From Spongiibacter tropicus DSM 19543 (GTDB taxonomy: Bacteria; Pseudomonadota; Gammaproteobacteria; Pseudomonadales; Spongiibacteraceae), in contig NZ_ATUS01000004.1 in the NCBI RefSeq assembly GCF_000420325.1, forward strand, positions 62,001 through 126,000: DNA of 64,000 nucleotides, read 5' to 3'. This document shows positions 1 through 19,223 of the stretch, piece after piece. Made by a program: the position numbers and the translations under genes. Under the pieces are notes generated by a model. The model had not been told where the DNA came from and did no database searches. It saw only the letters and a program-made list of their open reading frames with translations. Each line of letters starts with the position of its first letter. Position 1 is the stretch's first letter.

Positions 1-45
1 GATTAGCATGGATAAAGCACCACGACATGTAAGGAATGCCGACGA

Positions 46-510
46 ATGAATATCAGTATAGAAATCCCGGCCTTGATGGTAATGGCCAGCTCGCTACTCA
101 AGCGTTGCATTCTCGACGCGCAGCGGGTCGAGTCAAAACGCTATTTCAGGGAACTTGAGGCGGGCAACCCCGTACTGCTGAGTGACCTGTCGATGGAGGA
201 CGACTCGGTGCTGCGAGTCAGTCTTGAGATGAATGCGTCGGAGTTTTGTGGCCAGCTGAATTACAGCGCGTTTCGAGATCAACTGACGATGCTGATCGAC
301 ACTTACAGCCGATATTTGAAAGCCGGGCAGGAACCCAAGGTGTTGAGCGACGACAGCGGTGTGCAGCATGTGATCGTTCTGCCCGCAGTCAGCGAGATTC
401 GCGGTCAGCGTAACGCTCTGGTAATGGGGTTTGACCAAAGTCGCCCCGCAAATCTGCGCCTGAAGTTGATGTTTGTAGATGCTGCACAGTTTATGGAAAA
501 GGCCAGCTAG
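46..510 (+). CDS. Conserved hypothetical protein, 154 aa
   Basis: I do not recognise a family. The ATG at 46 is preceded by AAGGA (31-35), so the start is reasonable. The product is soluble-looking, with a hydrophobic N-terminal stretch (residues 7-18) too weak for a clear signal peptide, followed by mixed alpha/beta sequence without cysteine motifs or repeats. It sits upstream of fadD in the same orientation, with a 131-base gap containing a possible promoter, so it may be a separate transcript. It could be a flagellar or PilZ-like regulatory protein, but nothing in the sequence proves this. Codon use looks like that of its neighbours, so it is probably real. Confidence 0.7.
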   Translation: MNISIEIPALMVMASSLLKRCILDAQRVESKRYFRELEAGNPVLLSDLSMEDDSVLRVSLEMNASEFCGQLNYSAFRDQLTMLIDTYSRYLKAGQEPKVLSDDSGVQHVIVLPAVSEIRGQRNALVMGFDQSRPANLRLKLMFVDAAQFMEKAS

Positions 511-16204: not shown

Positions 16205-18298
16205 ATGAGCTATCAGGTTCTGGCTAGAAAATGGCGCCCCAAGAGTTTCCGGGAAATGGCCGGTCAGAGTCATGTGCTCAAAGCCCTTATCAATGCGCTG
16301 GATCACGACCGTCTTCATCATGCCTACCTGTTTACCGGCACACGCGGTGTCGGTAAAACCACCATCGCACGTATTCTTGCCCGCTGTTTGAATTGTGAGC
16401 AGGGCGTGAGCTCCGAACCCTGCGGCCAGTGTCAGGCCTGCGTGGCGATCAATGAGGGGCGCTTTGTCGACTTGATAGAGGTCGATGCGGCCTCGCGCAC
16501 CAAGGTGGAAGATACCCGTGAGCTGCTGGATAACGTTCAGTACACGCCGACTCAGGGTCGCTACAAGGTGTATCTCATCGATGAGGTTCACATGCTCAGT
16601 GCCAGCAGTTTCAATGCGCTGCTGAAAACGCTCGAAGAGCCGCCGCCGCATGTCAAATTCCTGTTGGCGACGACAGACCCGCAAAAGATTCCTGCGACAA
16701 TTCTCTCTCGTTGCCTGCAGTTCAGCCTGAAAAACCTCAGTCCCGAGCGCGTGGTGGACTATCTCAAGCAGATTCTCGAAAAAGAGATGATTGCCTACGA
16801 TGACGCCGCGCTGTGGCTGCTGGGACGCGCTGCTGATGGCAGTATGCGCGATGCTCTCAGCTTGACAGATCAGGCGATTGCCTTTGGCTCTGGCAAGCTG
16901 GGCGAAGACGATGTTCGCCAGATGCTGGGCACTATTGACCACGCGGCGGTACATCGCATTGTTCGTGCGCTTTCCCAGCATGATGGTGCACAATTGCTGG
17001 CCATTGTTGCCGATCTGGCGGAATTGGGTGTTGATTTCGCCGGTGTGGCCAGCGAGCTGCTGGTGGTACTCCATCGTTTGGCGATTGCCCAGACGGTGCC
17101 GGAAGGCTTGGACAACAGTCTGGGCGATCGCCAAGCACTGCTTGAACTGGCGCAAACGCTCAGTGCCGAAGAGGTGCAGTTTTACTACCAGATGGCCCTC
17201 CAGGGGCGTCGTGATCTGGGTTTGGCGCCAGAGCTTAGGGGCGGCCTGGAAATGTTGCTGTTGCGGCTGCTGGCCTTTAAGCCCGAAGGTGTAATGGCGC
17301 CGCCAGTGCACAGACTGCCCGCGTCTACCAGTCATGAGGGAGGCGAGACGGCTCCTGAAAAAAAGCCATTAGCGGCTGACTCAGGTGGCGAGCAATCGCC
17401 GCCTGAAACAGAGGCTGTGGCAGATCTGTCTGCCAGCGAGCGTGCAAGCCGGTTACAAGCTGACGTGTCAGAGTCCGCTGAAGCGGTGTCGACGCCGACC
17501 ACCTCGGCGCCGAAGGCAGTACCGGCTCCGGAGCCCACCGTTGATACAGAGCCAGAGGTCGCGCCGACGACCGCCATGGCGAGTGGCGGGACGCAGCACT
17601 CGGCGGATGTGGGTGGTGAGGCGCCCCTGCCGGATGATTACGCCAACTGGGCGAATTATGCCGAGCAAGCCCCGGATTCACAGCCTGATTCGCGGATTGC
17701 GCCGGAGCCGCAGCTCGCACAATCGTCTGAACCGACACCTGTCACCGCGTCCCCGGCGAAGGCCGCGCTGGATGTGCTGGCCTCTCAGCATGTCCCGGAG
17801 CCAGTGCAGGATTCCGCGGCAGCAACGCCCTCAGCACAGCCCCGTGGTTCTGAACACCCGGCCGCAACTGATATCGGTGAGAAAATCTCCTTGGACGAGC
17901 TGGACGCCCGCTGTTGGCGCGAGCGCTTTGAGGCATTCCCTCTGCCCGGTATGCTGGGCAGTATTGCTGCACATTGCCAGATACATGAGCGTCTGGACTC
18001 CCGGCTGAGCTTTATCATCGGGGAGGCAAACGCCACCTTGCTGAACGACCGACAGGTCGAACGTCTTCAGGAACAACTTAGCGAGTACTTCGGCCAGCCG
18101 CTGAAAGTGACGGTAGAGCTGGGAGAGCCGCAGGAAGAGACGCCCGCGCAGTATCGCGCCAGGTTGCTGAGTGAGCAGTTAGCTGCGGCGCGGGTGGCCA
18201 TCGAGTCTGATCCATTGGTGCTGCAGATTATTGAAGAATTTGGTGCGGAGCTGGAGCCCGAGTCGCTCAGCCTGCCGGGCCAGCGTGGGAGAGAGTGA
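16205..18298 (+). CDS. dnaX: DNA polymerase III subunits tau and gamma
   Basis: Clamp-loader ATPase and replisome organiser. The AAA+ domain has Walker [10 protein letters not shown] (45-53), a zinc module with Cys64, Cys73, Cys76 and Cys79, and a DEVHMLS Walker B. Residues about 365-560 are a Pro/Ala/Glu-rich linker typical of tau; the C-terminal domain (about 570-697) should bind DnaB and the polymerase alpha subunit. The full product has 697 residues. Within the linker, codons 385-387 form an A-AAA-AAG slippery heptamer with a -1-frame TGA four codons later, predicting a 391-residue gamma form. The stop overlaps the ybaB start (TGATG). Confidence 0.96.
17336..17406 (+). promoter_or_regulatory. 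Predicted programmed -1 frameshift element in dnaX
   Basis: Elements in order: a Shine-Dalgarno-like AGGGAGG (17337-17343), the slippery heptamer A-AAA-AAG (17359-17365, in register with the dnaX codons), a -1-frame stop TGA (17377-17379), and a hairpin with 11-bp arms 17381-17391 and 17396-17406 around a GCAA loop (one U-G pair). The heptamer and layout match the E. coli dnaX signal, although the spacer to the hairpin (15 bases) is longer than in E. coli. Confidence 0.75.
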
Positions 18299-18621
18299 TG
18301 AAAGCCGACTTGAACGATTTGATGAAGAAAGCTGCCGAGATGCAGGAGAAGATGCAGAAGGCGCAAGAAGAGATGGCTAACCGTGAGGTGCTCGGTGAAT
18401 CGGGCGCCGGTTTGGTGAAAGTCACAATGACCGGGCGTCACGATGTGCGCCGGGTAGAAATTGATCCCAGTTTGCTCACCGAAGACAAGGAAATTCTCGA
18501 AGACCTGCTGGCGGCCGCCGTCAATGACGCGGTACGCAAAGTCGAGGAGAGTAGCAAGAGTGAGCTGGGCGATATGCTGTCGGGCATGGGCATGCCCGGC
18601 GGATTCAAGATGCCTTTCTGA
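18298..18621 (+). CDS. ybaB: Nucleoid-associated protein, YbaB/EbfC family
   Basis: Small dimeric DNA-binding protein encoded, as usual, between dnaX and recR. The 107 residues have the expected long N-terminal helix with [16 protein letters not shown] heptads, a central beta segment ([17 protein letters not shown]), an acidic [20 protein letters not shown] helix, and a Gly/Met-rich tail. The ATG at 18298 overlaps the dnaX stop; a GTG directly before it (18295) is in frame and would add one residue. The stop overlaps the recR start (TGATG). Confidence 0.95.
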
Positions 18622-19223
18622 TGGCCAATTTTAGCCCACTGATAGATGAGTTGATAGAGGCGCTGCGTTGTCTGCCCGGCGTCGGGCCAAAGTCTGCGCA
18701 GCGCATCAGTTTTCAGTTGCTTGAGCGCAATCGTGGCGGCGCCCAACGCCTCTCTCTGGCGCTGCAGAAAGCGGTTGACGAAGTGGGTCACTGCCGCAGC
18801 TGTCGCACATTGACGGAAGATGCTGAGTGCCGAATCTGCCGTGATCCCCGCCGTGACCAGCAGACAATCTGTGTGGTCGAGTCACCCGCGGATGTACTGG
18901 CTTTTGAACAGGGCGGTGACTATCGCGGACTGTATTTTGTGCTGATGGGACGGTTGTCGCCCATTGACGGCATCGGTCCCGAGGAGATCGGTATCGATCG
19001 CCTGGTTGAACGTGTACAGGCACTGTCGGTCAAGGAATTGATCCTGGCAACCAATCCCACCGTTGAGGGCGAGGCGACCGCTTTCTATATCGCCGAAGAA
19101 ATGCGACGTCTTGGTGTCGCCGTCAGTCGCATCGCGCACGGTGTGCCACTGGGTGGTGAGCTTGAGTACGTCGATAGCGGCACCTTGTCCCACGCTCTGA
19201 AGGGGCGTCAACGCTTTGACTGA
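18621..19223 (+). CDS. recR: Recombination mediator RecR
   Basis: RecR acts with RecO (and RecF) to load RecA on gapped DNA. The 200 residues contain the helix-hairpin-helix [11 protein letters not shown] (about 13-23), the four-cysteine zinc finger CRSC...CRIC (about 57-72) and a Toprim domain beginning [10 protein letters not shown], ending with the usual [13 protein letters not shown] motif. It is joined by one-base overlap to ybaB upstream and by eight bases to rnd downstream. Confidence 0.97.

Follow-up and report, generated by a model that had tools for sequence, protein, structure and literature searches.

In Escherichia coli K-12, dnaX carries a proven -1 frameshift signal, the mechanism and efficiency of which are described in the dnaX portions of PMC6787027 and PMC5009743. 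An in-register A_AAA_AAG heptamer is accompanied there by a Shine-Dalgarno (SD)-like element upstream, a stem-loop downstream and a nearby TGA in the -1 frame, and a single tRNA-Lys is reported in the corresponding part of PMC6787027. Thermus thermophilus also makes tau and gamma from one dnaX gene, by slippage of RNA polymerase on a run of nine A (A9), as set out in sections of PMC5009743 and PMC1088944. A reversed two-ORF dnaX, in which tau is the product of the shift, has already been described in the relevant passages of PMC3711429 and PMC5009743, and in Caulobacter gamma arises by proteolysis (PMC5009743).

Here we analysed the dnaX gene in a stretch of 64,000 nucleotides from Spongiibacter tropicus DSM 19543 (hereafter the window), for which an initial annotation had proposed a frameshift signal from the sequence of this one gene. 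We conclude with high confidence that the window dnaX carries a programmed -1 ribosomal frameshift signal of the E. coli type. It shares with E. coli K-12 dnaX the in-register heptamer, the upstream SD-like element, the downstream stem-loop, a near -1 TGA and a single tRNA-Lys(UUU). It differs from the E. coli gene in its dimensions: the SD-like element lies 15 nt upstream (9 in E. coli if measured alike, 10 by literal counting of bases), four codons rather than one lead to the stop, the core stem lies 15 nt downstream (10 nt with its extension) rather than the approximately 5 nt of the E. coli fold, and gamma would be 391 aa with a run of seven A (A7), against 431 aa and six A (A6). Unlike the Thermus gene with its A9, the window gene combines A7 with putative ribosomal stimulators, and no A-run of nine or so, or longer, is present at its site. 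The shift in the reversed genes is of the same kind, but in the window the shift would yield gamma, tau being read in the zero frame; the reversed layout is not present, as the 697-aa zero-frame ORF contains domain V. A literature search for Spongiibacter and frameshifting, judged by titles and the starts of abstracts, returned nothing on dnaX. With these results, dnaX frameshifting, which is proven in E. coli, extends to a marine clade in which there is evidence of selection at the level of nucleotides.

Anatomy of the site and predicted products of dnaX

Direct reading of the sequence confirmed the coordinates that the initial annotation had given for the heptamer, the SD-like AGGGAGG, the -1 TGA and the stem (Table 1). 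Codons 385–387 are GAA AAA AAG, with A (17359), AAA (17360–17362) and AAG (17363–17365) in register, and the run of A is seven long (17358–17364). After a slip, the -1 frame would read GCC ATT AGC GGC TGA, or Ala-Ile-Ser-Gly-stop, and 387 + 4 residues give the 391-residue gamma with the Ala-Ile-Ser-Gly tail that had been claimed. The heptamer is placed in the linker after domain III: the Pfam clamp-loader domains of the window DnaX extend to residue 358, and the slip codons, 386–387, fall between them and domain V. Gamma, as the product of the -1 slip, is thus predicted to comprise clamp-loader domains I–III without tau domain V. Applied to E. coli K-12 dnaX, the same script recovers the known site, with its 431-aa gamma and one codon to the -1 stop. 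Directly 3' of the window dnaX are two ORFs (18295–19223) that, by eye, resemble what we take to be YbaB and RecR genes, which are frequent followers of dnaX.

Table 1. Features of the dnaX locus, in window coordinates.
Feature	Position	Strand	Basis
dnaX, full-length tau, 697 aa, zero frame	16205..18298	+	ORF, start codon ATG at 16205 by direct reading; TIGR02397 (dnaX N-terminal family), 448 bits; Pfam clamp-loader domains and tau domain V
Predicted gamma coding region, 391 aa	16205..17379	+	zero frame to 17365, -1 frame 17365–17376, then TGA; predicted slip
DnaX domain III (residues 234–358), retained in gamma	16904..17278	+	PF12169
Putative Shine-Dalgarno-like stimulator AGGGAGG, 15 nt before the heptamer	17337..17343	+	direct reading; anti-SD peak in relatives; null test
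Slippery heptamer A_AAA_AAG, in register, codons 386–387 AAA AAG	17359..17365	+	
Extended stem-loop enclosing the core stem and interrupted by internal loops, -33.3 kcal/mol	17366..17420	+	folding
TGA stop, -1 frame	17377..17379	+	four codons past the site
11-bp stem with GCAA loop, likely downstream stimulator	17381..17406	+	direct reading; folding
Tau domain V (residues 570–687), missing from gamma	17912..18265	+	PF12170

On a single sequence, the argument from chance is weak. AAAAAAG occurs nine times in the 64-kb window, with 6.85 expected, and the heptamer by itself is no more than chance would give. From the codon usage of the window dnaX alone, GAA-AAA-AAG would be expected for about 9% of Glu-Lys-Lys; a -1 stop within four codons appeared in 15% of 5000 synonymous recodings, and 6.1% of 3000 such recodings fold as well as the window site. 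The initial annotation had held that A7G together with a strong hairpin would be uncommon by chance, an argument that is weaker on one gene than stated; it is conservation of the signal in relatives that excludes chance.

Conservation of the slip site in the genus, family and order

To the window dnaX we added the genes of 17 other genomes placed in the same genus, giving a genus set of 18. The site sequences of Spongiibacter marinus (L038), S. thalassae (L035) and Neomelitea salexigens (L036) equal those of L008, L023 and L009, respectively, and these three repeats were not counted; L139 repeats L121, L042 and L069 have no dnaX frame, and L037, L039, L040 and L041 stand outside all counts.

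All 18 genus genes carry A_AAA_AAG in register, followed by a -1 stop two to eight codons on (four or fewer in 15 of them). A break in the A-run or loss of the -1 stop in relatives, which the initial annotation had named as refuting the signal, was seen in none of the 18. The heptamer is likewise in register in both further genes found in the family. The slip site is the sole Lys-Lys in the genus genes, and the codon before it, which specifies Val, Glu, Ala or Thr (GTA 11, GAA 3, GCA 3, ACA 1), ends in A in every case, compared with an A-ending share of 19–40% for these amino acids elsewhere in the linker. The run itself is A6 in 15/18 genes and A7 in 3/18. The distance to the stop adds no more than modest evidence, because a -1 stop is reached within four codons at 32% of the other linker positions of these genes (median 8).

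The same nucleotide preference extends beyond the genus. The 86 tree genes outside it contain 73 Lys-Lys codon pairs when overlapping pairs are included; 48 of these are AAA-AAG, and the base before is A in every one of the 48. A majority of the non-genus A6–A7 genes with a zero-frame tau (20/33) stop after one codon, in the fashion of E. coli. On a dnaX tree of 104 rows, the backbone of which is poorly resolved and several rows of which are long, an A6–A7 site is present in every one of the 20 rows of the family (support 100/99) and of the 30 rows that make up a larger clade of weak support (83/74), and the site labels are clustered, with 21 changes against 44.9 in shuffles.

For the order we used 84 genes, a non-random sample of the best-scoring rows listed, spread over families and including L141, the second dnaX of genome G140. 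The heptamer is in register in 46 of the 84, and occurrences of A6G in the remaining two frames number 2 and 1. Within codons 350–500, 31/84 genes have no A6 run at all and the site is missing from 38/84, a figure that includes L066, L140 and L161, which are cut or hold N in that stretch and were scored as without the site. The absence of the site from 38 of 84 genes indicates that making gamma by the frameshift route is not universal. In the class sample, the site is found in 8/28 genes, two of the 28 being cut there. Sites past codon 500 were uncounted, and L058 was thus scored as without the site; it has an in-register A_AAA_AAG near codon 534, far further downstream than usual, with a -1 stop one codon on.

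A positioned Shine-Dalgarno-like element precedes the heptamer

Averaged over the 18 genus genes, anti-SD pairing is strongest, at -9.6 kcal/mol, approximately 20 nt upstream of the heptamer. A second, weaker hump (-4.1) is seen near +24, and the other values from -60 to +59 are mostly weaker than -2. By one alignment measure, the SD-to-heptamer spacing is 13 nt in 17/18 genus genes, 15 in the window and 9 in E. coli, and in L008 and L009 a variant measure picks an SD match at 10 instead. As the window spacing exceeds both the genus and the E. coli value, frameshifting efficiency may differ. A strong SD score, for which we set a cut-off of 6.8 (E. coli dnaX, at 6.3, scores under it), was obtained for 18/18 genus genes, compared with 2.6% of other linker positions. 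The element is more tightly conserved in the dnaX genes of the genus than one sequence could reveal, and tightly placed at 13 nt, a longer spacing than that of E. coli. The anti-SD pattern GGATCACCTCCTTA is present in 3 of the 18 genus genomes; a 16S gene was looked for in the assembly of the window genome and not found.

By eye, many relatives (for example L010, L017 and L148) seemed to have a hairpin upstream of the site with the SD in its loop, a candidate that we rejected. This hairpin closes in 26 of 30 clade genes, against 21.1 expected from synonymous recodings that keep the SD unchanged (mean z -0.35). Across the genus, folding in general at -40..-2 has a z of about -0.4, and the enclosing pair set of the window is weak (z 0.92). 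The null test attributes the upstream palindromes to GC-rich Ala codons. Palindromes with the SD in the loop, just 5' of the site, were noted in L010, L016–L018, L021 and L148.

Downstream structure is enriched but variable

The core stem in the window pairs 17381–17391 with 17396–17406 in 11 pairs, one of them G-U. It is extended through CUG/CAG (17376–17378 with 17409–17411), with weaker pairs on to 17366/17420. The initial annotation had remarked that a 15-base spacer to the hairpin is long; this is correct for the core stem, and the concern is softened by the extended stem, which leaves 10 nt. The fold of 17366–17425 reaches -33.3 kcal/mol (z -6.2 versus dinucleotide shuffles), and among 681 50-nt stretches of the gene four fold lower than that of the site, three of which overlap the same hairpin.

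Across relatives we scored folding excess, defined as z below -1.65. At +7..57 it was present in 6/18 genus genes and in 16/36 A6–A7 genes of the family and order, compared with 0/18 and 1/36, respectively, at +60..110. The excess of structure in the nearer stretch over the farther one is significant in the genus (p 3e-3; 8e-3 without the window) and in the 36 other A6–A7 genes (p 6e-6). The stems vary in sequence and place among genes, that of the window being the strongest of the genus by z. The nearest relatives, L008 and L009, have no folding excess in the same place (z 0.1 and -0.4), and conservation of the stem, which the initial annotation had proposed to check in close relatives, was not found. 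The known stem-loop of E. coli also shows no excess on this test (z -0.16); because that stem-loop is proven, the z test has low power, and failure to score does not show that a stem-loop is absent. The 11-bp stem is not a conserved element, and downstream structure is enriched after A6–A7 sites, variable in place and undetected in many relatives.

Long A-runs and reversed genes in the same order

In 18 of the 104 tree rows, all of the window's order, the same stretch of the gene holds a run of 8–11 A (A8+). Among the 12 A8+ genes tested, whose runs end in an in-register A6G, none has a strong SD, compared with 24/36 A6–A7 genes (p 4e-6), and folding excess is present in 3/12 (median z 0.0), compared with 16/36 (p 0.03). 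By analogy with the Thermus case, the A8–A11 genes of the order are probably transcriptional-slippage genes, and their lack of an SD and lesser folding support a ribosomal reading of the A7 in the window. Runs of ten A occur at the site in L142–L145, L135, L054, L154–L157, L099 and L100; all of these but L135 were tested, and none has a strong SD.

One other genus of the order has reversed dnaX genes in all three of its genomes examined (L047, L048 and L055, from G082, G043 and G140). In these genes, which form one clade on the dnaX tree, A_AAA_AAG is followed after one codon by a zero-frame stop, and the -1 frame stays open for 244–294 residues, with a Pfam match to tau domain V in each. If tau is needed in this genus, A_AAA_AAG must work there, and the same -1 shift is required. 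Of the two genomes of the sister genus, one (L121) follows the E. coli arrangement, and in the other (L140) a stretch of N makes the site unreadable. Beside the reversed L055, G140 carries a second, ordinary dnaX without the site (L141), perhaps a contaminant or a second copy.

We lean towards the view, on balance a probable one, that in a single gammaproteobacterial order dnaX has moved among at least three modes of producing tau and gamma: an A6–A7 frameshift with SD and stem, probable polymerase slippage on A8–A11 without an SD, and the reversed layout. If this is true, the order could be used as a natural experiment on recoding mechanisms that replace each other. The related genes, be they ribosomal, probable slippage, reversed or without any such route, form a comparison set for asking why the clamp-loader gene keeps finding new ways to gamma.

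In the class sample, the 380-codon frame of the dnaX gene L074 closes just a few bases past an A9G run, and tau domain V lies in the -1 frame. It is another reversed gene, with a run of slippage length.

Proposed mechanism and alternative explanations

Beside the anatomy, conservation, nucleotide-position constraint, domain boundaries and single tRNA-Lys established here, we infer the slip, its efficiency, the action of the SD and stem in this gene and the role of gamma by homology with E. coli. A ribosome arriving at A_AAA_AAG would have the internal SD base-paired to its 16S rRNA on the upstream side, with the stem-loop downstream delaying translocation. tRNA-Lys(UUU), which would decode both Lys codons, could then move its pairing back by one base, from AAG to AAA. 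A fraction of the ribosomes would add Ala-Ile-Ser-Gly and end at the TGA at 17377, yielding a gamma of 391 aa with the ATPase, lid and domain III, and the remaining ribosomes would yield the 697-aa tau, which also carries domain V.

Gamma could instead be translated from mRNAs of altered length if RNA polymerase slipped on the A-run, as it does on the A9 of Thermus dnaX. The window run is seven A long and runs of 8–11 A are found in the same order, both of which favour slippage; the genus runs are A6–A7, however, shorter than the length of nine for which the pertinent part of PMC1088944 describes slippage avoidance as usual, and the SD and downstream structure, which would be useless to slippage, nevertheless go with A6–A7 sites. 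We consider slippage at this site very improbable. Nor do we give much credence to the absence of any recoding, whereby Lys-Lys would be kept for protein reasons, for instance near a processing site as in Caulobacter, and only tau would be translated. Conservation of Lys-Lys at one place soon after domain III is what such a constraint would produce, but a protein site needs neither the observed codon choice, nor the wobble A of a preceding codon that varies, nor a positioned SD, nor a near -1 stop, and the three reversed genomes cannot make domain V from dnaX without a -1 shift; this explanation, too, is highly unlikely.

Programmed ribosomal frameshifting being the preferred reading, the slip could be real and the stem incidental, with SD and heptamer sufficient in the genus and the strong stem of the window a chance occurrence or a recent gain. 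The lack of folding excess in the sister species (L008 and L009) and the 6.1% of synonymous recodings that fold equally well are consistent with this possibility, whereas the enrichment of folding just past the site, and not further on, across genus and order speaks against it, and the real stem-loop of E. coli is itself without z excess. We regard an incidental stem as possible though rather unlikely.

tRNA-Lys complement

Among 37 tRNA-model matches in the window genome, ARAGORN names one tRNA-Lys, with anticodon UUU, and no tRNA-Lys CUU; the weakest match gave no ARAGORN gene and, as no 16S gene was found in the assembly, some tRNA genes may be missing from it too.

A remark in PMC5009743 prompted the idea that A8+ genes might be paired with a second tRNA-Lys(CUU). 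By pattern detection only, a UUU match was present in 15/18 A8+ genomes and a CUU match in 0/18; G137, G232 and G153 gave no tRNA-Lys pattern match, although G232 does yield a UUU match when one mismatch is allowed. The A8+ change seems not to be explained by a second tRNA-Lys. Two CUU-type pattern matches, candidates by pattern only, occur in G068 and G019, both of which are A6–A7 genomes.
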